Of a stretch of DNA of 20,690 nucleotides, positions 2,947 through 18,383 are shown in pieces. The notes beneath the pieces are model-generated. The model had not been told where the DNA came from. It searched no databases and worked only from the letters and a program-made list of their open reading frames with translations. The DNA is from a virus, in IMG/VR virus record IMGVR_UViG_3300047356_000302, positions 1 through 20,690 of that record; one strand, given 5' to 3'. Position 1 is the first letter of the stretch; every line of letters begins with the position of its first letter. A program made the translations under genes and the position numbers.

Positions 2947-5280
2947 TTATTTAAGGTAGCCGTTTGTTGTTAGGTAAAGGTTTTGGAACGTCATAATCTG
3001 TTCGACGCTCATTTCGTATTTCTCTGCTATTTTATTAAGGGTTTCCCGGTGCTGAGGGTCAACATTTTCAAGGGTCATCCCTCCATCTTTCCAAGCTTGA
3101 ACAGCCGCCGCAGTGTTTTTGATATTACCACCGATTATGATGGGTACTAAGGAGAAGTCTAAAAGGTTATTATCCATCATAAACTCTACGGAGACCTGCC
3201 CTTTCTGACGTCTGTTTTCGTGTCCTTCAAAACCAAGTGTGAACTGTGTTCCTAATTTAAAGACACCGTCAACCAACGTTTCCGCAGGAACCCCTGCTAC
3301 CTTCATAAGTTCAAAAAGCTGTGTACCTTTGTCTAGGCGTTGGTCAAGAGGCGGTTTGATGTATACCTCTGGACCTTGTTTGAAGTTCCACTTAGGTATG
3401 ATGCCCATGATTAGTCTGTCAGCCTCGGAGGGCATCACTGTGTTACCTGCAAAACCTATTCTGGCTTTCTTATTGACCCACGCATCCTCATAAATAGATA
3501 CGTGAGCTTGGTAAACTTCGTCATCGCTTAATGTACCGAGCTTTTTAAGTTCTTGATAATTTTCTAATCGTTTTTGAGGCGACCTACCTGCGGGGACCAG
3601 AACACCATTTATATTTTCATGTGTGATTTTTTCGGTCTTATCTTGTCTTGCCTCCTCAGCTTCTAAAGTAATCACCTTGGCGGCATTCTCTGGGCTCATA
3701 ATGCTTTCAAGTTCTGCTACACGCTCCTCACCAACAATCTCTATGTCCTCTTTTTGTTGTTGAGTTTTTGCCCCAGCAGCAACAACAGTCGAGGAATTAT
3801 TAGTTTCCTTAACCCATTCCTTCAGGTCTTTGACTAGCTCAACCTCCCCTTCCTTGAAGGCTAGGCGTTGAGCCCCTTCGTCTTCAATGTCTATAACCGA
3901 CCTGTAAAGAGCATCGTACATAGTGTCCCGTTTAAGCGCATACTGTTCTTGAAACTCTTGCCCAGCGGCGGTGAACCCTTGAACCGTATTGTCTTCCACA
4001 CTTCTATCAAGGTAACTCTCAGGCAGGTTTATAAAGACATATTCATCAACACTTCGTTGTGAGCTATTCTCTCTAGCGATAAAGTTTGCAGCAGCCTCGC
4101 GCTCAAATAACAGTGGGTTCGCTTTCATCTTATTAAGCTCCACGGTCATAATGTCCCGTAAGATGTCATTCTCATAAGTGACATCGTTAAACACACCGCC
4201 GTGAATACTCATGGCTTTAATGGCTGAATCTAGGTAGGCTTTTCCTGTCCCCTCACTTGGGATACGAATGACTGCTGCTTGAATACTTGCTAGGTGTACC
4301 TTGGAATCCCGAACAGCATCGTTGTAGGATTCATCCTTACGCTCCTCTAACTTTGCTTCCATCTGTGTTAGGTACAGCTGACGTGTAGGAGTAGCGAACA
4401 ACTCTTGCCCTGCTACCATATTGTCCTCTCCTTTGCCGTCCCCAATCTCCTCAATCATGTCTTCGAGGAGCTGGTGGTCTACGGAGCTGTCACTGGCTAA
4501 CAAAGTATTCATCTTGGTTTGTAGTGTACCAAAGACCGCCTCTGCTGCTGCACGTCCTCCAAGTGTTCCTTTGTGAGATTTAATTAACTCTCCTCCAATC
4601 GTTGCTATCTGGTCTACATTTGCAGACGTAATACCATCAAACTGACGAGCCATAGACTCCATAGCCATCTGTTGATTACGAGCAGGTAACTCCCGACTAA
4701 ACTTGGCAACCTCCTTGCTTAGGAAGTCAGCACGTGTAGCAGACTTGAGGGCATTGTTGGCTTGTTCACTAAATACATTACCACCAAGGAGCTGGTCAGC
4801 CTCTTCATAAACAGACCCTACTCGTTCCTCCAAAGCTGCCTCAAAGGATGCAGCATCTTTGTAGTCGTAGTAGTTCTTGAACATATCGTTCGATAGTTCT
4901 TGGAGCTTTGTTGGTATCTCTGTTGCGTAGTACTTTGCAGCTACCTGTCGGTTGTACGTCTTTGTGTATCCAAACAAACTACGGGCTTCTGGGTCTAGTC
5001 CTTTTTGTAAGAACTTATCGTACTCAGCATCCGACATATTAGCGACGTCTTCTGCTGCTTTTTTCTGTGCTACATCTACAGCTTGACCGTAGGCAGCTAC
5101 ACCCTGTTTTAAGGCACTACTCAACTGCATCGCTGAGTTGGTTAGAGGTGTCTGCTGAACGGCTACACGGTAGTTACCTCCAGCTCGAACTGTGGGGTTC
5201 AGGGCTACAGGGTTCAGGTTAAGTTCTACCTGCTTCCGTTTCTTGGAGCCGTCGTCGATTGTAATTTGTCTAGTAGCCAT
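2947..5280 (-). CDS. Internal virion protein, T7 gp15-like
   Basis: A 777-residue, largely helical protein of the size and position of T7 gp15 (747 aa). In T7, gp15 and gp16 form the internal core and, after ejection, the periplasmic conduit that moves DNA into the cell. Features are ALKQGVAAYGQAVDVAQKKA and NMSDAEYDKFLQKGLDPEAR near the N-terminus, ARNQQMAMESMARQFDGITS (about 200-219), long acidic helical stretches, and near the end FVHEN-free, mixed helical sequence finishing NLYLTTNGYLK. There is no signal peptide or enzymatic motif that I can see. The stop is separated from the gp16-like start by two bases. Assignment rests on order, length and overall resemblance of the N-terminal half to other gp15 proteins. 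Confidence 0.85.
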   Translation of the reverse strand: MATRQITIDDGSKKRKQVELNLNPVALNPTVRAGGNYRVAVQQTPLTNSAMQLSSALKQGVAAYGQAVDVAQKKAAEDVANMSDAEYDKFLQKGLDPEARSLFGYTKTYNRQVAAKYYATEIPTKLQELSNDMFKNYYDYKDAASFEAALEERVGSVYEEADQLLGGNVFSEQANNALKSATRADFLSKEVAKFSRELPARNQQMAMESMARQFDGITSANVDQIATIGGELIKSHKGTLGGRAAAEAVFGTLQTKMNTLLASDSSVDHQLLEDMIEEIGDGKGEDNMVAGQELFATPTRQLYLTQMEAKLEERKDESYNDAVRDSKVHLASIQAAVIRIPSEGTGKAYLDSAIKAMSIHGGVFNDVTYENDILRDIMTVELNKMKANPLLFEREAAANFIARENSSQRSVDEYVFINLPESYLDRSVEDNTVQGFTAAGQEFQEQYALKRDTMYDALYRSVIDIEDEGAQRLAFKEGEVELVKDLKEWVKETNNSSTVVAAGAKTQQQKEDIEIVGEERVAELESIMSPENAAKVITLEAEEARQDKTEKITHENINGVLVPAGRSPQKRLENYQELKKLGTLSDDEVYQAHVSIYEDAWVNKKARIGFAGNTVMPSEADRLIMGIIPKWNFKQGPEVYIKPPLDQRLDKGTQLFELMKVAGVPAETLVDGVFKLGTQFTLGFEGHENRRQKGQVSVEFMMDNNLLDFSLVPIIIGGNIKNTAAAVQAWKDGGMTLENVDPQHRETLNKIAEKYEMSVEQIMTFQNLYLTTNGYLK

Positions 5281-6403: not shown

Positions 6404-9194
6404 ATCGGTTAGAGCGGGAGTGAACAAAGGATTCAAACTCAGCACTCTGGAATGTACTCGGAAGAGCACTCTCGTTTTCAATGGTGATAGTTGTGTCCAA
6501 AGGTTTGGTGAACACAGGGAAGCGATAGAAACCACTCCCAAGTGTCAGAGAACCGATGGTAGATGAACCAACGACATCAGGTGTAAAGACGTTCTCGTAG
6601 GTGTCACGGTACTTAGGGGTCACCTTAACTTTGAAGTAAGCTGAGTCAGCATAATAGATAGAACCATTACGGATACGCATCTTGGCTGCATTAGAGGGAC
6701 TCTTACCGTTCCCTGCTTTAGCTTTGAAGAGCTGCTCAGAGAACGTGTACTTCATTGTGTAAGGGATACCTACCCAGACATCTGTATCGGAGGTTACAGG
6801 ACTGCTTAGAGTGACCGTAGAGCCGCTATTGGTGCAGTTAAGGGCTAACCCATCAGTCGTATAGACTTCCACCGAGTTGTCCTCTGGGGTGTACGGCAGG
6901 GTGATTGTAGAGGAGCCAATGTCTACTGTGGTAGACACTCGACTGTCTAAGTGTGTAACATAACCAGCATTATCCTTTAAGCCAGACTCTAAGGGCATCT
7001 CTACGAGGTTCGTTTCGTCGTTGTTTACGATGACTGCGTAGAGGGTGGACTCGATAAACTCGATGCCTCGTATATCACCCGCGAAGGTAAACTTTGACCA
7101 CGCACTAAGGACTTTCTGGTTGTTGTTCCAGAAGTAATTGTAGACGTATAGGGAGCCCTTTTCTTCGTTACTTAGTAGGGCAATTATGTCCTCCGAGGTG
7201 GTTCCTGCTATATCAATGATGTCCTTTGGTATGTAAGCAGGTACATGCTCAGTCACCTCCTCGGAGTCATACACATCGGTAGAGGCGTTCACAGTGTACT
7301 CTCGGAGTCCTGTGAATGAACCACGAGTAAACGGAAAATAAAGGTAAGAACCCAAGGGGAGAGGCTCTACTTGGTCTTCTACGCTGAAGTTGGTAACAGG
7401 AGTTATGCTCACTGTTTTAGGAGTTAGAACATCCCCACCCTTCATAACAAACTGACCATTCTCAGAGAATATAATTAGATTCTCTTGGAATCCTTTAGCA
7501 CTTTTAAAGTTAGTTATGCGACTGCTTGATACAGAGACGTCAATAGGGTCAGAATCAAGTAGAGTAGTTACTGAAGTACGTCCAAAATTATACTCCATTG
7601 AGCCTTGTTCATTCAGAACCCCTAAACCACTTTCAGACATTATAATGTTTTCTTTACTTAGAAAGCCTAGTCTATTTTTAAAGAAGAATATGTTATCAAT
7701 AGGCTGCCCTACAAACGATGGAAGTGGGTTGGTGTCATCGTCTCCAGCAAGCCTATCAGCATAGAATCCTTGTCTGATTTCAAAGGAATCAACAGCATCG
7801 TTTACGAGTACATGAGGCATAGTGCTTGCTTCATACCCTGCTACAATACCAAAACCTACTGTCTCAGTATAGACGCCCTGACCATATACCGCATTAGAGT
7901 TGGTAGAAAATTCTACATAGTAATCATCGGCTGAAAGCTCAGCATCTCCTCTGATTTTTATTCTAAATCCATCCTTATTAGAGGCTGGTAGAGAAGATAT
8001 AGAGTCAATTTCTTTATATGCAGCACTTAGCCCAGAATTTGATAAATCATCACGAGTGGTTAAACTAAAATCTTTCGTTTGGTCTGAGAGAGTAAGATAA
8101 ACATTACTGTCCGAAGATGCTTGAACAACTGTAAACGCTCCATTTATACCACCACCATAGGTAGTGTCATAAGTAGAGTTCATTTCATCTTTTAATCCAG
8201 CAGCAATAGTAGTGGAATTAGCATGGTCATCTGAGCTTGAATCCGAAGACTTAAAGCTCGCAAAAAACTCCGCCGTCGAGCCTACTGACCCACCAGTTAC
8301 GGAATGATTTATGGTGGGAGTCCTGTAACCCAACTTTTTTATTGAGGAAGAATCATCAGCCGTATTCGTTATCCCCTCAAAGCTTCCCCCGTTTACAACC
8401 GTAACACTTACAACTGAACCGTTTGATATATTTACATCTAAGTTTGGATTACTATAAGTAGCTTTGTTGCTTGTAACTCCTATGCTAATGTTTCCAGTTA
8501 TGTCTGAGCCAGCCGCCGTAACCTGTACTGAGGCAACGCGCCATCTGTATGTATTTCGGTAGTAGTCATTATAAGCATTTACGAATTGGGAATCATATAA
8601 ATATCGTTCTAGTGTTAAAGTGAACTCAGGTAACGTTGGTGGCGTTACACTTACAGCGTTACCATCAGCGTCCGTAACCCTTACATCAACCCTATAATTT
8701 TTTTCGTAACCGCCTTGCGTAACAAATACCACACCTTCTTTTGTTAAGGGGGCGGTAGTGGTTGTTTTAGGAGCAACAGATACACTAGAATTTAACAAAA
8801 AGGTTGAATCGCCCAATGTAAGCGCCTTTAAGTTACTACGTGGAGATAGGTTAGATAAGTAATGTCCAGATGTAGGAGCATACCCACCAGCAGAACCGTT
8901 GATAGTAGCTTCAACACCTGTGAGTGCATTCCACGCCTGTATTTTAGTCCCGTCATGAATAACAACATACTTCTCGGACTCACTTCGATTGATAAAATGA
9001 ACGAAGCTATCTGCATCAATAGCCGTCTCTAACAACCTAGCAACATGCCGAGTGTTAGGGCGCTTCTTCAGTCCCTCCGCAACAGAGCTAAGAGCGTTTT
9101 CCTGCTCCTCACATTGTCCATCAAAACGAGTGGCATCGGGTTGTTGAGAGACACCTTGGATAAGGTTAGGAACACTGGTGTTAATTAAAGGCAT
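6396..9194 (-). CDS. Tail tube protein B (nozzle), T7 gp12-like
   Basis: A 932-residue protein equivalent to T7 gp12 (794 aa), the nozzle at the tip of the short tail. The start MPLINTSVPNLIQGVSQQPD with RFDGQCEEQENAL and GLKKRPNTRHVA is diagnostic. Other family blocks are VGQPIDNIFFFKNRLGFLS (about 515-533), ENLIIFSENGQFVMKGGDVL and the end RSNRYG. The extra length compared with T7 appears to lie in residues about 180-390, a Ser/Thr/Asn-rich region (for example NISIGVTSNKATYSNPNLDV) encoded by DNA noticeably richer in A and T than the flanks. It may be an inserted or exchanged beta domain on the outer surface. The start shares one base with the tail tube A stop, and the 3' end overlaps the next gene by 8 bases. 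Confidence 0.95.
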   Translation of the reverse strand: MPLINTSVPNLIQGVSQQPDATRFDGQCEEQENALSSVAEGLKKRPNTRHVARLLETAIDADSFVHFINRSESEKYVVIHDGTKIQAWNALTGVEATINGSAGGYAPTSGHYLSNLSPRSNLKALTLGDSTFLLNSSVSVAPKTTTTAPLTKEGVVFVTQGGYEKNYRVDVRVTDADGNAVSVTPPTLPEFTLTLERYLYDSQFVNAYNDYYRNTYRWRVASVQVTAAGSDITGNISIGVTSNKATYSNPNLDVNISNGSVVSVTVVNGGSFEGITNTADDSSSIKKLGYRTPTINHSVTGGSVGSTAEFFASFKSSDSSSDDHANSTTIAAGLKDEMNSTYDTTYGGGINGAFTVVQASSDSNVYLTLSDQTKDFSLTTRDDLSNSGLSAAYKEIDSISSLPASNKDGFRIKIRGDAELSADDYYVEFSTNSNAVYGQGVYTETVGFGIVAGYEASTMPHVLVNDAVDSFEIRQGFYADRLAGDDDTNPLPSFVGQPIDNIFFFKNRLGFLSKENIIMSESGLGVLNEQGSMEYNFGRTSVTTLLDSDPIDVSVSSSRITNFKSAKGFQENLIIFSENGQFVMKGGDVLTPKTVSITPVTNFSVEDQVEPLPLGSYLYFPFTRGSFTGLREYTVNASTDVYDSEEVTEHVPAYIPKDIIDIAGTTSEDIIALLSNEEKGSLYVYNYFWNNNQKVLSAWSKFTFAGDIRGIEFIESTLYAVIVNNDETNLVEMPLESGLKDNAGYVTHLDSRVSTTVDIGSSTITLPYTPEDNSVEVYTTDGLALNCTNSGSTVTLSSPVTSDTDVWVGIPYTMKYTFSEQLFKAKAGNGKSPSNAAKMRIRNGSIYYADSAYFKVKVTPKYRDTYENVFTPDVVGSSTIGSLTLGSGFYRFPVFTKPLDTTITIENESALPSTFQSAEFESFVHSRSNRYG

Positions 9195-11173
9195 TAGATA
9201 AGGTCGTAGTTACGGTTAATACCAATTCTGGAGGCTACGTCGTAGCTGTCAAATATGGAGTAGTTAGCATCATCAAACTCACGGTCTTTAAAGTAAGCCC
9301 GTAGCTCCGCTTCCATCTTCGGAAGACGCTGGATGTCTACACCGCTCTGTGGGTATAGCTCGGTCAATAAGATAGCTACACGAACACTGAGATACTCACG
9401 GTACTTCTGTGGGGTGTCACCGAGTGCTTTAGGAACAATGACACCATCTTCATCGATGTTGAAATACCATCCACGTCCTTGTAGCTCTTTGTCGGTGTCA
9501 CGCAGTAGGCGAACACATTCAGAAGCTAAGGAGTCGGAGTTAAGAGCTGTCACTGGAGGTTCGCCAATAAAGCGCATCACCTTGTTGACCTCAGAAAGTT
9601 CTGTGGCGTCTGTGCCTGTCTCTGTGGCTGTCACTAGGCGTAGCTTAGCGGCATCCTTTAGAATCTCTACCTTCTTGTAAGCAGGTGTCTGCTGGAACGT
9701 GGACTCTTGAATACCCATGATACGCATTTCAGCGGCGTAGTCTCTGTATGTATCCTGAGTACCAGCAACAACACCATCGTAGAAAGCTTTTTCGGCTGTC
9801 ACTTCGATAGCAGTCTGGGCGTCTAGTTGGGTCTTCTGGGAGGTCTTTAGGTCTGTGTCTGCATCAAGCGCAGCCCCTTGTTTACCCTTAAGAGTCGTAT
9901 CAGCAGCTACATCCGTAGCTTGAGCATCCACAAGACTTCCTTGTTTACCCTTGAGGGTTGTGTCTGCGGCTACGTCAGTTGCTTGTGCATCAACTAATGA
10001 ACCCTGTTTACCTTTAAGTGTAGTGTCGGCGGCAACATCGGTCGCCTGAGCATCCACAAGACTTCCTTGTTTTCCTTTAAGCGTTGTATCAGCGGCAACA
10101 TCTGTAGCTTGAGCGTCAACGAGAGAGCCCTGTTTGCCTTTCAACGTGGTGTCTGCCGCTACATCCGTAGCCTGTGCATCTACGAGGGAACCTTGCTTAC
10201 CTTTCAGAGTAGTATCAGCAGCGACATCTAAAGCTTGAGCTTCTACTAGGTCTTCTTGCTCACCCAGTAGGGAAGTCTCAGCAACAACCTTTAGGGCGTT
10301 TTGAATCTCAGTAAGAGCTTGCTTGTCAATTAAAGAGCCTTGTTTACCTTTGATGGTAGTATCAGCTCCAATGTCTGTTGCTTTAGCGACTTCAGTCAAC
10401 GCTTGTTTAACAACTAACGCTTCTTGGTCATTTATCAGGGATGTCTCTGCAATGACCTTTAGGGCATTCTGGACTTCTGTGAGTGCCTGCTTAGTAACCA
10501 AGGCTTCTTGGTCATTAATTAACGAGGTCTCAGCAACGGTCTTGAGGGCACTCTTTAATTCAGTAGCTGCTTGATTAGCAACCAGTGCCTCTTGGTCGGC
10601 TATGAGGTCTGTCTCAGCTTTGGTCTTAGCAATGTTAGCTAGTTCACCACCGAGACGTAGTGTACCAATCTTCTCCTCTACGTTCCCCTGAAGGAACATA
10701 ACCTCGTCCATTCCAAGACCTCTGAGTTCCGCTGGGAACGAGTTGAAGTCTAGGGTTCCATTGGAGTTACGGACGTGGGCTTGTTGAAGGATGGCTAGAC
10801 TTACTAGCTCCTCATTGTAACTAAATTTTTGTAGCTCTTCTGAGCCAATTAATCGTGTTTGTGCAATGCGAGAAGCACGGATTGTGATGTACCGTCGTGC
10901 TTCCTCTGGGATGTCCGAGCTCCAGTTATTGTTAGTACTACTCGGATAGATAACAACATTGGCAGTAGTGTCGTAGTTACTTCCTGTTTTTTGATTGAAC
11001 CACCAGCCTTTAGACTGGATGTCAGTACTTACTTCCTCAATAGTGTTTAACGCCAGCGACACTTGCTGTGGCAGAGCACCACCAGAAAGAGAATTAACTG
11101 GAGACTCACCTAAGTTAGCAAGGACGATATTAACCGACTCAAGGAGAGTCGTAGATATAGAGGTTGTAGGCAT
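9194..11173 (-). CDS. Tail tube protein A, T7 gp11-like, with two gp11 domains and a repeat insert
   Basis: A 659-residue relative of the T7 adaptor/tail tube protein gp11 (196 aa), which forms the ring between portal and nozzle. The C-terminal part is the closest match: ELSEVNKVMRFIGEPPVTAL (525-544) and DKELQGRGWYFNIDEDGV (561-578) parallel T7 LSAVNDILASIGEPPVSTL and IQSRGWTFNIEEG. The N-terminal part is a second copy: LLESVNIVLANLGESPVNSL (10-29) and TDIQSKGWWFNQ (50-61), with the family's RRYITIRASRIAQTRLIG helix after it. Between them, residues 187-433 are a repeat array of 28- and 21-residue units. The start follows the terminator closely and lacks a Shine-Dalgarno; its stop shares one base with tail tube B. 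The family is certain; the function of the extra length is unknown. Confidence 0.92.
   Translation of the reverse strand: MPTTSISTTLLESVNIVLANLGESPVNSLSGGALPQQVSLALNTIEEVSTDIQSKGWWFNQKTGSNYDTTANVVIYPSSTNNNWSSDIPEEARRYITIRASRIAQTRLIGSEELQKFSYNEELVSLAILQQAHVRNSNGTLDFNSFPAELRGLGMDEVMFLQGNVEEKIGTLRLGGELANIAKTKAETDLIADQEALVANQAATELKSALKTVAETSLINDQEALVTKQALTEVQNALKVIAETSLINDQEALVVKQALTEVAKATDIGADTTIKGKQGSLIDKQALTEIQNALKVVAETSLLGEQEDLVEAQALDVAADTTLKGKQGSLVDAQATDVAADTTLKGKQGSLVDAQATDVAADTTLKGKQGSLVDAQATDVAADTTLKGKQGSLVDAQATDVAADTTLKGKQGSLVDAQATDVAADTTLKGKQGAALDADTDLKTSQKTQLDAQTAIEVTAEKAFYDGVVAGTQDTYRDYAAEMRIMGIQESTFQQTPAYKKVEILKDAAKLRLVTATETGTDATELSEVNKVMRFIGEPPVTALNSDSLASECVRLLRDTDKELQGRGWYFNIDEDGVIVPKALGDTPQKYREYLSVRVAILLTELYPQSGVDIQRLPKMEAELRAYFKDREFDDANYSIFDSYDVASRIGINRNYDLI
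9875..10615 (-). repeat. 28/21-residue tandem repeat array inside tail tube protein A
   Basis: This stretch encodes residues 187-433. It starts with four 28-residue units of the type ETSLINDQEALVTKQALTEV plus QNALKVIA (starts at 187, 215, 243 and 271), then a 21-residue transition unit at 299. Five perfect copies of a 21-residue unit follow (DTTLKGKQGSLVDAQATDVA plus A; residues 320-424, bases 9902-10216) and then a degenerate sixth. Both unit lengths are multiples of seven, and Leu/Val/Ala recur at regular places, suggesting a continuous helical or coiled-coil rod. At DNA level the copies are not identical: many third positions differ without changing the protein. Confidence 0.93.
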
Positions 11174-11245: not shown

Positions 11246-12268
11246 TTACTGTACTTCTACAGCACACTCAGGACGCAAGACACCGTGTCCCATTGCATAC
11301 TTTGCAACGAACAATGTACCTTGGCGTTCGATTTGGTACTCGGACTCTGTAGCGAGGTCGAGAAGCTTAACAGTACCGATAGCTTCCTTAGTACCAGCGA
11401 GGATACGAGTAGCAGATAGGTCACCGTTATAGCCAGCACCATTAGCACCGAACACGTCATTCTTGACAGCCGAGCTACCGTCACCAGAAGTGTCCGCAGA
11501 GCTGTCAACAGCGATAGTGCTGAGGTGGTTGCTCTTGACTAGCTTGATGCCAGCAACTTGAGCAATAGTACCAGTTGCGATGTTACCAACACCACCAACG
11601 TCACGGTTAGCAGCGAGAGAAATCGCGCTGTTGTCCGCAGTGATGAGGGTGTAGTAATCAGCAGGGCTGAGGATAGCGAAGCGACCTTCATCAGTCACGT
11701 CTTTACCGTCGAGAGTCTCAGCGATACCGTAGAGGGCATCAATAAGCTCAGCAGCAGTAGCATTAGCACCAGCGAATAGACCAGTGAGTTGCGAACCAGC
11801 TTCACCACCAGAGACAGTTGCCGAGGAGCGAGCTGCACCAGCAAGGGTCTTCATTGTGGCTACGTCGAAGCGTTTAGCAAGGGCTTTACCAAGCTCCTTA
11901 GCGTAGATGCTACGAACGTCGTAGTGGTTCTTCAATTCATCAATGTTGGCGATGAATGTAGACGAGATGAGGACATCATCAATCGAGATGACACGCTCAG
12001 CATGTTTGATTGCAGACAGGTAACCATTTCCAGAGTCAGCGATATTCTCGCCAGCTGTGTGGTATCCTGCGGTTGCGATTCCTGTTGCTGGGAACTGTGC
12101 AGATTTACCGCTCTGAATAGTGCGAACCATGTGTAATTCCTTCATCACGTTTTGTTCTTCAAACGTAGTTAGAATTTCACCAGAGAACACCTTCAGGAAC
12201 AACGCATTTGCATCACCAGCAGCATTTACTTGTCCCAAACGGGACGGGGATGTATTGCCATTAGCCAT
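11246..12268 (-). CDS. Major capsid protein, T7 gp10A-like
   Basis: A 340-residue HK97-fold major capsid protein of the T7 type (T7 gp10A is 345 aa); it forms the icosahedral shell. Recognisable blocks are ALFLKVFSGEILTTFEEQNV (22-41), RTIQSGKSAQFPATGIATAG (49-68) with YHTAGENI, the E-loop region, then AERVISIDDVLISSTFIANI and KELGKALAKRFDVATMKTLA. The end, RQGTLFVAKYAMGHGVLRPE, is the usual C-terminal motif of the family. It has its own ribosome-binding site and long leader, consistent with high expression, and is followed 12 bases later by a strong terminator. There is no room for a T7-style frameshift extension (10B) because the terminator follows at once. Confidence 0.97.
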   Translation of the reverse strand: MANGNTSPSRLGQVNAAGDANALFLKVFSGEILTTFEEQNVMKELHMVRTIQSGKSAQFPATGIATAGYHTAGENIADSGNGYLSAIKHAERVISIDDVLISSTFIANIDELKNHYDVRSIYAKELGKALAKRFDVATMKTLAGAARSSATVSGGEAGSQLTGLFAGANATAAELIDALYGIAETLDGKDVTDEGRFAILSPADYYTLITADNSAISLAANRDVGGVGNIATGTIAQVAGIKLVKSNHLSTIAVDSSADTSGDGSSAVKNDVFGANGAGYNGDLSATRILAGTKEAIGTVKLLDLATESEYQIERQGTLFVAKYAMGHGVLRPECAVEVQ

Positions 12269-12394: not shown

Positions 12395-12634
12395 TCAGCA
12401 CTTCCAACGACGCAGGGCTAATGCCTTACGGGTTGGTCTGCCTTTAGAGTCTTTCATTGGTCCTTTGTTTCCACTCATACGAGCACAAAAGGACTTCTTA
12501 CGTGCGCCACCTTCAGGTTGAGGGGCTTTAAGATTAGAGCCAGTCTTGGAGTTATAGTACTTCCTGCCTTTAGCAGTTAAACCACCTTTGGATGATTTAT
12601 GCTCCTTGCGGAGACTGACGCCTTTTCTTTTCAT
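12395..12634 (-). CDS. Small basic DUF6321-like protein (79 aa)
   Basis: A 79-residue, very basic protein: MKRKGVSLRKEHKSSKGGLT, then KGRKYYNSKTGSNLKAP, ARKKSFCARMSGNKGPMKDS and KGRPTRKALALRRWKC. I recognise this pattern (GGLTAKGRKYYN, SFCARMSGNKGPMKD, ALALRRWKC) as the small DUF6321-type protein that recurs in aquatic phages. Its function is unknown to me. The strong positive charge and two spaced cysteines (Cys50 and the C-terminal Cys79) would suit nucleic-acid binding, possibly of packaged DNA, but that is speculation. It overlaps the muralytic enzyme gene by 38 bases and is the last gene before the 126-base leader of the capsid gene, so it belongs by transcription to the head/lysis block. 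Confidence 0.75.
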   Translation of the reverse strand: MKRKGVSLRKEHKSSKGGLTAKGRKYYNSKTGSNLKAPQPEGGARKKSFCARMSGNKGPMKDSKGRPTRKALALRRWKC

Positions 12635-13091
12635 TTAGATACTTTGTTATGATTGGGGTTGCCCTACTTCTGTAGGTATTAAGATTGATTTGCTTCTGGT
12701 CAGCCCTTGGGCTTTCCACACGTGTCCAAGCACCACCTCCACCATTCCAGATGAACAGTAGGTGGTCTGTTGTGGGTGTAACACCAGTGGACTCTATGTG
12801 CTGTGCGTAGTGGCTCAGAACGGCATAGGCGATATGCTCACTGACCTTGGGGTCAAAGGCGTCCGTATGGACAGCGTTAGAACCAGTTATACGGTTGTAA
12901 TCGTCCACCATTACCTTGTGGATTTGGTAGTGACCGTATGCGGCTCCGTTGTCCCCAACAACTGTGTATGGGCTGTCGTCATATACTTCCCACTGAGGGA
13001 TGAGCTTAACGAACTCCTTGAGTGTTATTGTGGTGTCTGCTTGGCAACAACCAAACAGTAAAAGGGATGTGAGTATGAGTTTAATTAACAT
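12597..13091 (-). CDS. Exported lysozyme/transglycosylase-like muralytic enzyme
   Basis: A 164-residue protein with an export signal and a lysozyme-fold body. MLIKLILTSLLLFGCCQAD has a basic start, a hydrophobic core and a lipobox-like LFGC (cysteine 15); cleavage by signal peptidase I after CQA is an alternative. The body contains VVGDNGAAYGHYQIHKVMVD (44-63), DYNRITGS, and LLFIWNGGGGAWTR. This order (GDNG, G..QI, DVNRI-like, IWNGG) matches a phage family of soluble lytic transglycosylase-like enzymes that cut peptidoglycan glycan strands. The catalytic glutamate is probably Glu35 in PQWEVYDD, though the usual ES/EG context is absent. It is probably the endolysin, given the adjacent holin and spanin genes. 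It overlaps the lipoprotein gene by 11 bases and the next gene by 38. A lipid-anchored virion or cell-wall role is possible. Confidence 0.72.
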   Translation of the reverse strand: MLIKLILTSLLLFGCCQADTTITLKEFVKLIPQWEVYDDSPYTVVGDNGAAYGHYQIHKVMVDDYNRITGSNAVHTDAFDPKVSEHIAYAVLSHYAQHIESTGVTPTTDHLLFIWNGGGGAWTRVESPRADQKQINLNTYRSRATPIITKYLNEKKRRQSPQGA

Positions 13092-13275
13092 CGTTTTCTA
13101 GGTCGTTTACGTAGTCGAGGATGCCCCCGATGGTTTCCCGTTCAGAGGAGCTAAACTCGTGTTGGTCTAGCTCCTCGATGAACTCAGGAATCCTGCTCTC
13201 TCTTAGTGTCACGCACCCACTCATTAATACGAGTGCTGTGCTCACGGTGACGACGAGTTGCAAGTTCTTTAACAT
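13081..13275 (-). CDS. o-spanin (Rz1-like) lipoprotein
   Basis: A 64-residue predicted lipoprotein. The N-terminus MLKNLQLVVTVSTALVLMSG is a signal sequence ending in a lipobox-like LMSGC with the lipidated cysteine at residue 21. The mature part is about 44 residues, acidic (RESRIPEFIEELDQHEFSSS, ending DYVNDLENDVN). Outer-membrane spanins are short lipoproteins of this kind that bind the inner-membrane spanin across the periplasm and promote fusion of the two membranes. Two things support this role: the gene starts inside the Rz-like frame, and it is followed, with an 11-base overlap, by a muralytic enzyme gene. It lacks the proline richness of many Rz1 proteins. The lipoprotein prediction is firm; the spanin role is likely. 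Confidence 0.75.
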   Translation of the reverse strand: MLKNLQLVVTVSTALVLMSGCVTLRESRIPEFIEELDQHEFSSSERETIGGILDYVNDLENDVN

Positions 13276-13351
13276 ATTCGGTTCGTATTTTCAGAAACAT
13301 CGCTCCGATTTTTGGGAACGCTATTAGTAACTGAACGATAAGGGTAATCAC
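13184..13351 (-). CDS. Short i-spanin (Rz-like) candidate with GTG start (55 aa)
   Basis: A 55-residue frame, found by reading the region between the holin and the lipoprotein gene. It starts at GTG (13351-13349), which overlaps the holin TGA as GTGA, and stops with TGA at 13184-13186. The N-terminus ITLIVQLLIAFPKIGAMFL is hydrophobic enough for a membrane segment, followed by a strongly charged, mainly basic tail (KIRTEYVKELATRRHREHST, then RINEWVRDTKREQDS) likely to be helical. The lipoprotein gene starts inside it in another frame, sharing 92 bases. An inner-membrane protein with an overlapping out-of-frame lipoprotein is the Rz/Rz1 spanin arrangement, which fuses inner and outer membranes at the end of lysis. 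It is far shorter than typical Rz, and the membrane segment contains Pro and Lys, so the call rests mostly on architecture. Confidence 0.6.
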   Translation of the reverse strand: MITLIVQLLIAFPKIGAMFLKIRTEYVKELATRRHREHSTRINEWVRDTKREQDS

Positions 13352-13536
13352 TTGTCTTTAGCTTTACCTACGTTGAGAGCGACCCAGTCGAGAACCTTGT
13401 AAGCTTTAGCCACAATGGAGTCATCTTTAGGGGTAGGAGTAAGAGCAGCTACAGCAGAAGCAGCAGCTACGACAGCCGAAACAGCAAACAGAATACTGTC
13501 TACGTTGGCTACTAGGTATGAGATAATTTCTTTCAT
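13348..13536 (-). CDS. Holin candidate, one transmembrane segment (62 aa)
   Basis: A 62-residue membrane protein with one strong hydrophobic segment (ILFAVSAVVAAASAVAAL, about residues 15-32) and a polar, basic C-terminal part (TPTPKDDSIVAKAYKVLDW, then GKAKDK). The small size, single TM, charged tail and immediate linkage to spanin-like and muralytic genes suggest a holin that opens the inner membrane at lysis time; the TPTPKDD turn followed by a short amphipathic helix resembles holin-type proteins of other aquatic phages. An AAGGAG at 13550-13555 lies 13 bases before the ATG. The start overlaps the tiny upstream ORF (ATGA), and the stop overlaps the GTG start of the next gene (GTGA). Another small membrane protein role cannot be excluded. 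Confidence 0.7.
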   Translation of the reverse strand: MKEIISYLVANVDSILFAVSAVVAAASAVAALTPTPKDDSIVAKAYKVLDWVALNVGKAKDK

Positions 13537-13628
13537 GATACGTTAATAACTCCTTCTGTAATAAGGTTTACTACGGACACAACGATGTCAGTAGCTTTAG
13601 TGCATAGGGTTTTAATTAGGTCAGTCAT
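13533..13628 (-). CDS. Tiny hydrophobic peptide upstream of holin (31 aa)
   Basis: A 31-codon reading frame between the scaffold and the holin candidate. It encodes MTDLIKTLCTKATDIVVSVV and then NLITEGVINVS, a moderately hydrophobic, possibly amphipathic peptide that could associate with membranes. Its stop overlaps the holin start in an ATGA arrangement, and without it there would be a gap of about 100 bases in an otherwise tightly packed region. No Shine-Dalgarno is visible; the leader is two copies of ATAACCA just before ATATG. Its role is unknown. A holin regulator, antiholin or simply a translational leader for the holin are possibilities suggested only by its position. Confidence 0.5.
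   Translation of the reverse strand: MTDLIKTLCTKATDIVVSVVNLITEGVINVS
13550..13555 (-). promoter_or_regulatory. Shine-Dalgarno AAGGAG for the holin candidate
   Basis: Minus-strand AAGGAG lies 13 bases upstream of the holin ATG at 13536, inside the 31-codon ORF. The spacing is long but the match is complete, and it supports the ATG at 13536. Confidence 0.5.
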
Positions 13629-13640
13629 ATTGGTTATTGG

Positions 13641-14444
13641 TTATAGTACGTTGGAGACCGCTAAGCGTTTCTCGACATTGTCACGGAACGCTGGGTCATT
13701 TGAATAACGAGGGTCACGCATAGCTTCAGTAACCTGAGCAGCAGACCCAAAGGGTTTAACAGAGGAGCCACTTGTGCCTCCCTGTGATAGTTCTGGAGGG
13801 TTACCACCCGCCGAGATGAACTGAGAATAGAGACCTTTGACAGCCATCTTAGCTTGGTCAACCGAACCGTTCTCAACAATAGAGTTGAAACCGTCAAGGT
13901 CGCTGTCGCTAAGGTTAGCAGCAGCCCAGTCAGCCATAGCGTTGTAGTTAGCGTTGCCGCCTACTTCACCTTGGATGTCCATAGCCTGTGATGTCGCAAT
14001 TGACTCCTGACCACGGATGTAGGCTTCCACCATATCACGAGAGATACCTGCCTTCTCAAGTTCAACAAAGGACTTGTCAGACAGCTCTCCATTTTTAGCA
14101 AAGTCTTCAGAAGCCTTAGAGACTACTTCTGATGTCTTAGAGCTGGGAGATGGTTCTTCTGTCTTCTCCTCTGCTTTCTCTGTCTTGGTGGACTGTTTCT
14201 TCTGAAGCTCATTGTAAGCCTTAGCTAGGTCTTCAGGTGATTTAAACTTATCATCGAGCCACTCAGGACGCTCCTCGGTTGTTTCCTTTTCGGGAGTTTC
14301 CTCGGTTGTTTCCTGCTCGGTGTCACTTTCGATGGTTTGATTACGTTGGTTGGCAGCTTCTTCTTGCATAGCCGCCTGTTGTTCGAGCGAGACGTTTTCT
14401 TCCTCGCTGGTTTCGTTTACTTGGGTTGATTGATAGTTAGCCAT
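13641..14444 (-). CDS. Capsid assembly scaffolding protein, T7 gp9-like
   Basis: A 267-residue acidic protein filling the gp9 position between portal and capsid. Scaffolding proteins of this group guide prohead assembly and leave before DNA is packaged. The N-terminal 100 residues are rich in Glu, Gln, Thr and Ser and probably disordered (stretches such as ETTEETPEKETTEERPEW), followed by WLDDKFKSPEDLAKAYNELQ, a recurring motif of T7-like scaffolds. A helical C-terminal part ends MRDPRYSNDPAFRDNVEKRL, the expected capsid-binding end. Its start shares one base with the portal stop and has a GAGG close upstream. The next recognisable head gene, the major capsid, begins only about 1.4 kb further on because lysis genes intervene. 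Confidence 0.92.
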   Translation of the reverse strand: MANYQSTQVNETSEEENVSLEQQAAMQEEAANQRNQTIESDTEQETTEETPEKETTEERPEWLDDKFKSPEDLAKAYNELQKKQSTKTEKAEEKTEEPSPSSKTSEVVSKASEDFAKNGELSDKSFVELEKAGISRDMVEAYIRGQESIATSQAMDIQGEVGGNANYNAMADWAAANLSDSDLDGFNSIVENGSVDQAKMAVKGLYSQFISAGGNPPELSQGGTSGSSVKPFGSAAQVTEAMRDPRYSNDPAFRDNVEKRLAVSNVL

Positions 14445-15982
14445 TATACCTCGCTTGGTTGTTGCTGTTGAGCGGCGGTAGCTTGGTCAGACATCGCTTT
14501 GATACCTGCTGGTCCTAGCTTCTCCGCCATTTGTTGTTGTTGGGCTTGTTGCATCTCTGCACCCATTTCTTCAGCCGACTTAACCAGTCCCTCAGTTTTA
14601 ATACCGAGAGCGGTTGCTCGACGTTTGAAATACTCTGCCACCTGTACGTGACCTGCTACAGCTTCGGGACCAACAACCTGAGCAGCTCCAGCAAGGAACA
14701 GGTCAAGTTTCTGTAGGTCGTTACCGCGTCCGAGAGCCTCAACACCTGTGATGATGATTGGCTTAACGACATCCTTGGGTAACTTAGGAAGCTTGTTCTT
14801 CTTGTTCATCACGTCCATCAGACGATTGACCAGAGGAAGCTGTAGTTCCATTGAAAGTAATGAATAGAGGCCGCCGAGTGCTGACTCTAGTTCCTGTCCA
14901 AGCATACGTATTTCCTCAGCAGTAACACGCTCAGCTTGACGAACAACGCCACTAGTAAGCAGGAAAGAGTGACCGAGGCGTTCCTCAATCTTCTGTACGC
15001 TTTCCTGAACAACTCGGAAGTCATTGAACTTCTCTAGCTGTAGTACTGAGATGTCCTGAGCGTTACCTTGGGCAATAGCACCATTAGGACTCTCAGCGAG
15101 TGTACGAGCACGAGTAGTACCATTAGGGTTCACTAGGAACAGAACCTTAGCGGCAGCAGCCGACCCTTCGACAAGGGATTGAGAGAGAGACTCAAGGGAC
15201 TGTAGGTCACCGAGGTACTCTTCTACGTATCCACGTCCATAGTCCTCCCCGTCAATACGGGAGAAGCGGAGGGGGATGTAGGGGTTCTTATCAAGAGCAA
15301 AGAAACCTTCAGACTTAGGGATAACGTTACCGTTGATTTCCTGCCAGACCTTCCAGCCTTTCTCTTTACGACAGACAGCGGTGTAGAGGTTTACTTCATC
15401 ATCTACTCCACCTTCATTAGCACCTGCTACTTCTTTCATATCCTCAGAGAGGCTCATGTAGCTCAGGGTTTCCTTGGTGCAGATATAAAGGATGTTGCCC
15501 ATAGGGTCACGCTCAACACAGAAGCGGTCGAGGTGGAACACGCGGGCTCCTCCATCTTCGGGTACGTACAGCAAAGCGTTACCTGTGATTACTAGGTGCT
15601 TTACTGCTTCGTGAATGGCTGTGCGATACGAACCACGACTGACCTCCTCCATAAAGGTTTCCTCTACTTGTTGTAGGGAGGTCTCAATCTCGGTGATAAG
15701 TTCTTCGGGTGCTCCTTCTGAGCGTAGCCCGTGTTCATCTATCTGTAGGCGAAAGAACGGGGCATTGGGTGGTAGGAGTGCTAACAGTAATTTAGATGCG
15801 AGGTTATTTACTCCGCGAGCCCCAATGCCCTGAAATGGTGTCTCCAGACGACTGTGGGCTCCGAACCCTTCGTCTGGCATAATGTATGGTATGGTAAGTT
15901 TAGAAGCCGAACGAGCACGGTCTAGGTATTGATACCGCTTCCCCTCAAGGGATGTGTATAAGGCTTCTGCTGTCTTGTTCAT
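14444..15982 (-). CDS. Portal (head-tail connector) protein, T7 gp8-like
   Basis: A 512-residue portal protein, close to T7 gp8 (536 aa). In T7-like phages twelve copies form the ring at the capsid vertex through which DNA is packaged and ejected, and on which the tail is built. The N-terminus carries family hallmarks: LYTSLEGKRYQYLDRARSAS, then NNLASKLLLALLPPNAPFFRL (about residues 59-79). Later come RVTAEEIRMLGQELESALGG, in the conserved wing/stem helical part, and a glutamine-rich C-terminal tail (QQAQQQQMAEKLG, then TAAQQQQPSEV). The start has no Shine-Dalgarno; the 11-base gap before it is AT-rich. The stop shares its last base with the scaffold start (TAATG). Confidence 0.95.
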   Translation of the reverse strand: MNKTAEALYTSLEGKRYQYLDRARSASKLTIPYIMPDEGFGAHSRLETPFQGIGARGVNNLASKLLLALLPPNAPFFRLQIDEHGLRSEGAPEELITEIETSLQQVEETFMEEVSRGSYRTAIHEAVKHLVITGNALLYVPEDGGARVFHLDRFCVERDPMGNILYICTKETLSYMSLSEDMKEVAGANEGGVDDEVNLYTAVCRKEKGWKVWQEINGNVIPKSEGFFALDKNPYIPLRFSRIDGEDYGRGYVEEYLGDLQSLESLSQSLVEGSAAAAKVLFLVNPNGTTRARTLAESPNGAIAQGNAQDISVLQLEKFNDFRVVQESVQKIEERLGHSFLLTSGVVRQAERVTAEEIRMLGQELESALGGLYSLLSMELQLPLVNRLMDVMNKKNKLPKLPKDVVKPIIITGVEALGRGNDLQKLDLFLAGAAQVVGPEAVAGHVQVAEYFKRRATALGIKTEGLVKSAEEMGAEMQQAQQQQMAEKLGPAGIKAMSDQATAAQQQQPSEV

Positions 15983-15993
15983 AAAGTGTTTGT

Positions 15994-16230
15994 TTAAATA
16001 TTATCTTCGATATTGTCGGGTATAAGGTAACTGTCAACGACCGTTGCTTCCTCGACTTCGTCCAGTTCGTACTCGGAGACATCCAATGCCCACTTGCCGT
16101 CAGCAGTAGGTACTGGCTTAGTCAACCAGCGTGTTCCTTTGCCTTCCGTCCAGTAGGCGAAGTTGTTGTACTTGCCTTCTTCGTCAGCACGCTCACAAGC
16201 GTCTTGTTCAGTTGTATAGATTAGATACAT
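15994..16230 (-). CDS. Small protein following the fibre gene, possible fibre partner (78 aa)
   Basis: A 78-residue acidic protein starting MYLIYTTEQDACERADEEG, with AYWTEGKGTRWLTKPVPTADG in the middle and an acidic tail (YELDEVEEATVVDSYL). It has no signal or membrane segment. I do not recognise a named family, but I recall similar small proteins directly behind fibre-type genes in aquatic phages. Its start shares one base with the fibre-like stop (TAATG), so translation is very likely coupled to that gene. That coupling is the reason to suggest a chaperone or assembly partner of the fibre-like protein; this is inference from position only. Eleven bases separate its stop from the portal start. 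Confidence 0.7.
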   Translation of the reverse strand: MYLIYTTEQDACERADEEGKYNNFAYWTEGKGTRWLTKPVPTADGKWALDVSEYELDEVEEATVVDSYLIPDNIEDNI

Positions 16231-18383
16231 TAGTAGATGTCGTATTGATTGTTAATGTTAGCTTCGATGGCAACACGGTTGGCTGATTGGTCGGAGTTGT
16301 AGACGATTAGTTCTGCAATGTTTCCGTTAAACTCACGGTCTCCTGACGCATCAATACCAATAGTAAAATTAACATTTGCTGGAGTAAATCCAGAGTAAGC
16401 GTCCGTAGCCTTGCTAGTTCCGTCTCGCCAGATTTCAGCATTGCTTCCATCGCCATTGATAGAGATTAGCGTTTGAGCAGTTCCGATTGCTCCTGTGCTA
16501 AACCCAACAATTGAATCAGTCGCATTAGCAAAAAACGAATATTCGTTAGATGCATTCGCAGATAATTGAAATCTACCTGATGTGCCTATTTGATATTGCC
16601 CAAATGCGTTTTGACCATTAGCCGTTGATGTCCCCGTAGCGTGATTCATCACGGAGGTAGCATAGAACAAAGAGGATGTTAGCACTTGTCCACTTACGGA
16701 AAGTCCATCATTAACCCCATCAAAGTCAATCCCACCACTCACAAGCACACCAGCATCAACAATCTTAGGCTGACTTCCAGCTACCTGCTGTGTCGCATCA
16801 TTGCCGTTGCCTGACTGGTCATACCAAGTCTCCACAAAGCCGTCCACTTGGTCATACCCTGTGTCTACTCCAGATGGTAGGTCGATGTTGTAGGTCTCCC
16901 CGATGTTGGCCTCAAGGGCTGTACGGTTGTCCGACTGGTCGGAGTCGTAAAGGATTAGTTCCGATACATAATTGAATGAGTTACCTGTTGAACCTGTTGA
17001 GGGGTTTGCACCAATCCTATTAATTGATGACCCCGAACCCGATGTCATCCCAAGTAAGTGAAAGCCCAATGAAGATACATTAGATGTACCATTATAAGTA
17101 ACTCCGTCTACGTTGACACTTGGAGTTCCGAATCCCTCAAACTTGTAAGCACGATTGTTTGCGTTATTATTCGTGGTCAGTCTGGGGGTATTGTCGTTAG
17201 TATCACAAATCAGTGTTTCAAAGTTGGTGTTACTTGCTTGCAGGGCTGAAAATACGCTCTTCGCAATGGGTCTACCAACGACATCCAATCGGTTATCTAC
17301 CGCACCACCGAACAGTATACTTGGTTTGGAGTTTCCCCCTCTGGTAACCAAGCTCCCACCATCAACAATCTTAGGCTGGCTTGCATTAGTCGTCTGCGTA
17401 GCGTGATTGCCGTTGCCTGATTGGTCGTACCAAATCACAACGTAGCCGTTGGATTTGATGATTTGTATCGAGTTAATAACAAAAGAAAACCCCGTTGTTG
17501 AGCTTACGTTATTTAATCTTAAATCAGCAAAAGGAAGGTATGAAGTAGCTGTCAGCTCATAATCATTAGTCCCAGAAAGTAATGAAGTTAAAACGAAACT
17601 AGAACCACTCACAAGAAAAATACTACCAGACGTAAAATCTCCAGTAATCGTAGCATTTACTTTAACGGTTTCTCCTTCTTCAACACGAAAAGAGCCTGTA
17701 TGGTTGGTCGCTAATCCAGCGGCTCCCGCATCAACATCAAAAGAGTTAATGGTTGCATTTGATATTGTCCCAGTTCCAGAAAGTTTCGTATATACTCCAG
17801 AAGATGGCCCTGTATTAACATCCGTATTTACCCAAGTCGTCAGCGTCCCATCAGCAACCTCAGCCGCAGTAAAGAGTTCCTCTGCGTCGTCACTAGAACG
17901 CCTTACGACTACTACGTTACCTGTGTAGGTGGAGCTAAGGTTACGGAGGCTGTAGGCGGCGGCGGCAGAAATAACATCACCTGTGCGCCCATCAGATTCT
18001 AACTCTTGTATGTCAAGAGGGAGAACAGCTTGAGTGTTTACCCAAGTTGCAATGTCTTTTACTTCCTTTGCTCGGAAGTCTTTCTCGTGGTTGTCACTAG
18101 CACGTCTTACACGGACTACCTTGTTGTTACCTGCGCGGTCGTTGAGGTCACGTAGGCTATAAGCAGCAGAAGCCCCGCCTACTACTTTGGTAAGTAGCGG
18201 ACGAGACTCCCCTTTACGGTCTGAGGTAACTACCTGTGCCGTGCGGTCTACTGTAATATTGTCGGCCACGCCTCCTGTCACTCTGGACATCGTGCGTGTC
18301 CCTGCAAAACGACTACGGTCAGGGATGGTAATTGTTTTGGTGCTTCCATCACCATTAGTAACCGTAATCGTTTTTGAGGGCAT
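16230..18383 (-). CDS. Fibre-like structural protein with duplicated GH54/lectin-like modules
   Basis: A 717-residue protein built from internal duplications, probably a virion appendage that touches host surface sugars. The first repeat pair is AAYSLRDLNDRAG (73-85) with VVRVRRASDN, and AAYSLRNLSSTYTG (142-155) with VVVVRRSSDD, each ending in TWVNT. The second pair is larger: WYDQSGNGNHATQ (318-330) with SQPKIVDGG, and WYDQSGNGNDATQ (520-532) with SQPKIVDAG. Each then runs through a Gly/Ser/Thr-rich beta region to an end block, SELILYDSDQSDNRTALEANI (474-494) and AELIVYNSDQSANRVAIEANI (690-710). The AYSLR plus YDQSGNGN pattern is known from proteins annotated as alpha-L-arabinofuranosidase B-like or concanavalin-like; enzymatic activity is not implied. 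No T7 gp17 anchor is visible. It lies between the gp7.3-like gene and the portal, an unusual place for a fibre. Its middle (about 17450-17700) is AT-rich. Confidence 0.75.
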   Translation of the reverse strand: MPSKTITVTNGDGSTKTITIPDRSRFAGTRTMSRVTGGVADNITVDRTAQVVTSDRKGESRPLLTKVVGGASAAYSLRDLNDRAGNNKVVRVRRASDNHEKDFRAKEVKDIATWVNTQAVLPLDIQELESDGRTGDVISAAAAYSLRNLSSTYTGNVVVVRRSSDDAEELFTAAEVADGTLTTWVNTDVNTGPSSGVYTKLSGTGTISNATINSFDVDAGAAGLATNHTGSFRVEEGETVKVNATITGDFTSGSIFLVSGSSFVLTSLLSGTNDYELTATSYLPFADLRLNNVSSTTGFSFVINSIQIIKSNGYVVIWYDQSGNGNHATQTTNASQPKIVDGGSLVTRGGNSKPSILFGGAVDNRLDVVGRPIAKSVFSALQASNTNFETLICDTNDNTPRLTTNNNANNRAYKFEGFGTPSVNVDGVTYNGTSNVSSLGFHLLGMTSGSGSSINRIGANPSTGSTGNSFNYVSELILYDSDQSDNRTALEANIGETYNIDLPSGVDTGYDQVDGFVETWYDQSGNGNDATQQVAGSQPKIVDAGVLVSGGIDFDGVNDGLSVSGQVLTSSLFYATSVMNHATGTSTANGQNAFGQYQIGTSGRFQLSANASNEYSFFANATDSIVGFSTGAIGTAQTLISINGDGSNAEIWRDGTSKATDAYSGFTPANVNFTIGIDASGDREFNGNIAELIVYNSDQSANRVAIEANINNQYDIY

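Follow-up and report, generated by a model that had tools for sequence, protein, structure and literature searches.

A candidate two-component spanin with an unusually short i-subunit in uncultured marine phages of the Ayaqvirus group

Introduction

Two-component spanins are characteristically recognised by a gene for an outer-membrane-type lipoprotein that is nested out of frame in the gene for a small membrane protein, beside a gene for a cell-wall enzyme. In the embedded pairs of lambda (Rz/Rz1) and T7 (gp18.5/gp18.7), the i-gene encodes a membrane-anchored helical protein, and the gene for the outer-membrane lipoprotein, the o-gene, has its start within the i-gene, in the +1 frame. The two-component spanin of P2 (LysB/LysC) has an overlapped layout. 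The i-proteins of these phages are 153 aa (Rz), 143 aa (gp18.5) and 141 aa (LysB, with a canonical transmembrane helix) in size, and the T7 spanin genes are located next to the terminase gene. The o-spanin frame is +1 in lambda, T7 and P2 alike (PMC6139136). The combined periplasmic lengths of catalogued spanin pairs range from 62 to 300 residues, the shortest being that of phiP27 (Kongari et al. 2018, PMC6139136), and more than 120 of the i-spanins have no predicted coiled coils (PMC6139136). Periplasmic cysteines occur in 507 of the 528 pairs and are thus common but not obligatory, with 21 pairs out of about 526-528 lacking them (PMC6139136). Several marine T7-like cyanophages were scored as spanin-less in the same survey (PMC6139136).

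Here we describe a gene pair on a 20,690-base fragment (positions 1 to 20,690 of IMG/VR record IMGVR_UViG_3300047356_000302), referred to below as the window. The pair is carried by uncultured marine phages of the Ayaqvirus group (Autographiviridae). As in lambda and T7, a lipoprotein gene starts in the +1 frame inside a gene for a helical, putatively membrane-anchored protein, and the o-gene is fully embedded in the longer homologues of the family; the overlapped layout seen in the window itself is that of P2. Unlike the lambda and T7 pairs, to which no sequence similarity was detected, the short form in the window has an i-protein of 55 aa, no periplasmic cysteine and a weaker, amphipathic anchor, and it is located between the scaffold and capsid genes. 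We consider it probable, at roughly 0.78, that the 55-aa protein and the lipoprotein constitute a two-component spanin of a new sequence family with an unusually short i-subunit.

Results

A small cassette between the scaffold and capsid genes

The minus strand of the window carries a T7-like late region in which the portal (14444-15982) and scaffold (13641-14444) genes are followed by a small cassette, the capsid gene (11246-12268) and the tail genes. The interval between scaffold and capsid contains, in order, a 31-aa hydrophobic frame (MTDLIKTLCTKATDIVVSVVNLITEGVINVS, 13533-13628), whose stop overlaps the start of the next gene (ATGA), a 62-aa membrane protein (13348-13536), the 55-aa frame (13184-13351), the 64-aa lipoprotein (13081-13275), a 164-aa protein (12597-13091), whose gene overlaps that of the lipoprotein by 11 nt, and, as the last gene of the cassette, a DUF6321 protein (12634-12395), all on the minus strand.

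Two other genes on the same strand have unusual structures. A tail tubular A-like frame at 9194-11173 has 659 aa (relatives: about 195 aa), and its two tubular-A-like halves are separated by an array of near-identical 'ATDVAADTTLKGKQGSLVDAQ' units. A 717-aa protein with repeated 'WYDQSGNGN' modules is encoded at 16230-18383, upstream of the portal gene, where an adhesin-like protein is unusual for a T7-like phage.

The 55-codon frame is a gene with a GTG start

The 55-aa frame starts with GTG at 13351-13349 and stops at 13186-13184, and its GTG shares 4 nt (GTGA) with the stop codon of the upstream 62-aa gene, as the initial annotation had placed it. The earliest ATG is codon 18, again in agreement with that annotation, and a gene of this kind can be missed by gene callers. 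There is no in-frame ATG, GTG or TTG upstream of the GTG before a stop codon is reached, and in several relatives a stop codon immediately precedes the start of the i-frame, so that the start position is pinned.

Two scans of viral contigs recovered 50 loci with homologues of the i-frame. The initial annotation had named frame-breaking changes in relatives as evidence against a gene, and none was found: the frame is intact at all covered loci, with 55 or 66 codons and the start codon at the same site (GTG 43, ATG 8 in this first set of loci, the phage S45C18 being among those with ATG).

To quantify selection, we calculated pN/pS for the part of the i-frame that lies outside the overlap with the lipoprotein gene, which yielded 0.28; reading this DNA in the two alternative frames gave 1.01 and 3.22. 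Variability in this segment was concentrated at the third codon position of the i-frame (0.47 versus 0.23 and 0.09), and the third-position variability of the lipoprotein frame was 0.28 within the overlap versus 0.47 outside it. When the lipoprotein codons were randomised synonymously, none of 5000 replicates came as close to the i-family consensus as the real sequence for any of the 7 sequences (z 5.1-7.9). A pN/pS of 0.80 for the first 25 codons of the clade with long i-proteins was set aside because the sequences pooled for it are offset by an indel. The pN/pS values, the pattern of third-position variability and the recoding result together indicate that both frames are coding, and the 55-codon GTG frame is a real gene under purifying selection in its own frame. 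That it is a mere by-product of the lipoprotein and upstream genes, as its small size, GTG start and lack of matches in protein-family libraries might suggest, is refuted by the selection pattern, and the pinned start and the intact frame wherever the site is covered make such an origin extremely improbable.

The overlapping lipoprotein gene

The lipoprotein frame (64 aa) sits in the +1 frame relative to the 55-aa frame and shares 92 nt with it (13184-13275), which confirms the reported start inside the 55-codon frame and the size of the overlap. It then extends 103 nt beyond the end of that frame, so the layout in the window is overlapped and not embedded, as it had been called. The lipoprotein has the lipobox LMSG|C followed by a mature part of 44 aa, and the lipobox-type signal is conserved in the family, with the Gly-Cys invariant among 16 aligned members; from this signal the o-subunit is predicted to be an outer-membrane lipoprotein.

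Thirteen of 16 family members weakly matched PHROG 456, the LysC o-spanin family of P2 (best E 0.003). The match was absent when the mature parts alone were searched without the signal peptide, and one of 5 control sequences in which the mature part had been shuffled also matched, more weakly and in the signal peptide only. Since the match depends on the signal peptide, we count the homology to LysC as weak, a hint of an o-spanin. No matches were found for the i-proteins among the PHROG spanin families or for the window i-protein among the Pfam models.

A natural length series

Two further scans with the lipoproteins, using the family alignment (80 loci) and the S45C18 lipoprotein (62 loci) as queries, yielded together with the window 138 loci with a readable i-frame containing the Phe-Pro motif, representing 105 distinct i/o pairs. 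The start codons were GTG in 78, ATG in 57 and TTG in 3 loci. The o-frame was always +1 to the i-frame at these loci, and the lipoprotein gene always overlaps a gene of the 55-aa family where the contig covers the site. The i-proteins were 52 (2 loci), 55 (31), 61 (2), 66 (27), 70 (6) or 99-111 aa (70) long and share the core L-L-[IL]-x-F-P-[mostly K/R] ... Y ... R ... I-[DN]-x-W. The o-gene is fully embedded at the 70 loci with i-genes of 99-111 aa and overlapped at the other 68. Every i-protein of 99-111 aa has two cysteines near the C-terminus; none of those of up to 70 aa has any, and the pairs with short members contain no cysteine beyond the lipidated one.

The short i-proteins consist of the N-terminal core of about 48 residues only, and their ends coincide with particular codons of the lipoprotein gene. 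In all 31 members of 55 aa, the stop (TGA in the i-frame) is created by the Pro codon CCT, for which the 66-aa members have CCA or CCG. The 66-aa members in turn end where a lipoprotein Phe codon is TTT (25/25; TAA or TAG in the i-frame), and the long members that share this Phe motif have TTC (25/25). In an unrooted tree inferred from the concatenated cores (109 columns, with many weak forks), a fully supported branch separates the long forms from the rest, and a branch with an SH-aLRT value of 93 sets off the 55-aa forms, which lie next to 66-aa forms. With the tree unrooted, shortening of the i-protein is the simpler reading of the length change but not a proven one, and the short i-proteins may be trimmed forms of longer ones.

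The N-terminal anchor and the reach of the pair

The hydrophobic N-terminus pointed out in the initial annotation is present, but it does not have the features of a typical transmembrane anchor. It contains an invariant Phe-Pro (F12-P13), followed by Lys or Arg in nearly all members, and only 13 uncharged residues. Its insertion energy was +1.3 to +2.6 on a rough, position-weighted biological scale that gives approximate values, as compared to -3.7 for lambda Rz, -3.7 for P2 LysB and +0.1 for T7 gp18.5. Likewise, the hydrophobic moment was 0.31-0.41 versus 0.02-0.14 in the control i-spanins (approximate scale). The segment is thus predicted to be a marginal, amphipathic membrane anchor rather than a clean transmembrane helix, and with this character and the Pro-Lys conserved at its centre it may differ from an ordinary N-in/C-out transmembrane helix.

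The main rival to the spanin starts from these properties. The 55-aa protein could be a second holin, an antiholin or a lysis-timing protein, that is, an amphipathic or N-out/C-in membrane peptide whose basic tail is cytoplasmic, and the lipoprotein would then work with another i-spanin or in some other way. The N-terminal helix has a narrow polar stripe and a conserved Lys, in the window protein no Lys or Arg precedes the anchor and five follow it, and the gene with its basic tail is located in a lysis-like cassette; each of the control i-spanins has at least one Lys or Arg ahead of the anchor. However, the control i-spanins also have more of these residues after the anchor than before it, and some homologues of the 55-aa protein have a Lys at residue 2-3. 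The overlap with the lipoprotein gene is consistent with a spanin, as are the long homologues with their embedded o-gene and Cys-bearing tail, and four relatives have a two-TM holin-like gene at the T7 holin position (see below). Taken together, we regard a holin or antiholin role as improbable.

An AF2 model of the 55-aa protein consists of a single helix (residues 2-54, pLDDT 77), basic beyond the marginal anchor. With the anchor taken as residues 2-20, about 35 residues of the i-protein and 44 of the lipoprotein, or 79 in total, would be periplasmic, which falls within the published range of 62-300. By ordinary helix geometry, the periplasmic part of the i-protein is estimated to reach about 5 nm, to which that of the lipoprotein would add about 7 nm as a helix or as much as about 15 nm in an extended form. 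From these estimates the pair is short but not impossible as a spanin, and the published minimum of 62 residues (PMC6139136) weakens the earlier view that the i-protein seemed too short to span the periplasm.

Relatives and the search for other spanins

Among annotated phages, the only true relative was the uncultured phage MedDCM-OCT-S45-C18 (Ayaqvirus S45C18, AP013544.1); matches to Synechococcus B23 and a Pseudomonas jumbo phage (E 0.2 or worse) were taken as chance, and a search for a host via genome contigs gave no confirmed relative. S45C18 has a homologous cassette at the same genome position between scaffold and capsid, downstream of the same 62-aa membrane protein, with identities to the window of 29% over the core of the i-protein and about 40% for the o-protein. 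It differs from the window in that the i-protein is 104 aa, the o-gene is fully embedded and no lysozyme-fold gene adjoins the pair, an amidase being encoded elsewhere. In the AP013544.1 record (L031), the i-gene (3995-4309) is annotated as 'hypothetical protein' and the embedded lipoprotein gene (4074-4277) is missing.

The initial annotation had named a full-length Rz elsewhere in the genome as evidence against the pair, and none was found in the genomes and contigs covered here. A rule-based scan of all frames found no second Rz/Rz1-like pair in S45C18 (complete, 40.6 kb) or in the near-complete contigs G002 (37.5 kb, 66-aa clade) and G007 (37.9 kb, 55-aa clade), in which the lipoprotein gene of the pair is the only convincing one, the lysozyme-like gene aside. 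Neither were there matches to Rz families in ten related contigs (six searched against PF03245 Phage_lysis, four others against PHROG 1327). The same scan, which also misses true cases such as that in the relative G001, found no pair of this kind in the 'spanin-less' phages P-SSP7, Syn5 and P60 or in P-SCSP2, HTVC019P, HTVC031P and CRP-125. Roseobacter phage CRP-804 (L057) has, at 33521-33772, just upstream of DNA maturase A, an overlapping pair of a 72-78-aa TM protein and a lipoprotein, annotated only as hypothetical; it is separate from the window family and likely a spanin at a T7-like position.

Another small membrane protein might instead serve as the i-spanin, the 55-aa protein being something else. 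Three candidates, namely the adjacent 62-aa protein, a 49-aa TM-plus-coil protein near the terminase and a 64-aa TM-plus-helix protein in G007, look by sequence cleaner in their N-terminal TM segments, and spanin genes may lie apart (PMC6139136). Yet the 49-aa protein was seen in G002 and G007 but in neither G001 nor S45C18, only G007 showed the 64-aa protein, and RHEph01 has a member of the 62-aa family as well but yielded no overlapping lipoprotein pair at this site. Since the candidates near the terminase are not conserved across all relatives, they were dropped. The consistent overlap of the lipoprotein gene with the 55-aa family, wherever the site is covered, likewise argues against such an assignment, which we consider unlikely, and less probable than a holin role.

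Neighbouring genes

The upstream 62-aa protein belongs to PHROG 9685, a family with no assigned function, and is a putative membrane protein, 'holin' being a label from the initial annotation only. A probable holin, judging from its sequence, is a conserved 53-54-aa two-TM protein located between the tail fibre and the small terminase, the T7 holin position, in S45C18, G001, G002 and G007 (L214 in G007:C1, 9420-9262 and just downstream, minus strand; L066, 18761; L069 in G002:C1, 20806; L033, 36942-37103, minus strand). It matches no known family, and in G002 and G007 it is followed by the 49-aa TM-plus-coil protein.

The 164-aa protein had no Pfam match and no significant PHROG match. Lysozymes and lytic transglycosylases accounted for each of the best 14 PDB fold matches to its AF2 model (pLDDT 71), with a best probability of 0.99 and E values of 0.2 or more, and we predict from the model that it is probably the endolysin of the cassette. 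A lipobox-like signal, LLFG|C, is conserved in its relatives, making a lipoprotein endolysin possible. The gene is present at most 55-aa-clade loci that cover the site and was not found at the 66-aa-clade loci examined.

Discussion

The spanin assignment is based on the overlapping lipoprotein gene in the +1 frame, its strict co-occurrence with the i-gene, the embedded longer homologues and the lack of another Rz/Rz1 pair in the complete relatives. The initial suggestion of an Rz-like, minimal spanin is thus supported in part: layout, co-occurrence and the embedded long homologues favour the pairing, and the hydrophobic N-terminus is present but unusual. If the pair acts as a spanin, the N-terminal segment of the i-subunit would reside in the inner membrane, with its basic helix exported to the periplasm, and a lipid anchor would hold the o-subunit in the outer membrane. 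The two subunits may bind each other through their C-terminal parts and, after degradation of the peptidoglycan by the lysozyme, would draw both membranes together and fuse them, such that the outer membrane of the bacterium would be broken at the end of infection.

A more specific and rather doubtful version is a spanin in which the i-subunit has been cut to its core of about 50 residues, with a marginal amphipathic anchor, perhaps in-plane or SAR-like, no disulfides, and a length set by synonymous codons in the lipoprotein gene. If true, the natural series from 111 to 52 residues would reveal the indispensable part of an i-spanin.

The GTG starts, the overlapping second frame and the location of the lysis cassette between scaffold and capsid illustrate why marine T7-like phages are left without annotated spanins. 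The family constitutes a natural deletion series within one homologous group, from 52 to 111 residues, with and without cysteines and in both embedded and overlapped layouts, and it bears on how small an i-spanin can be and still join two membranes.
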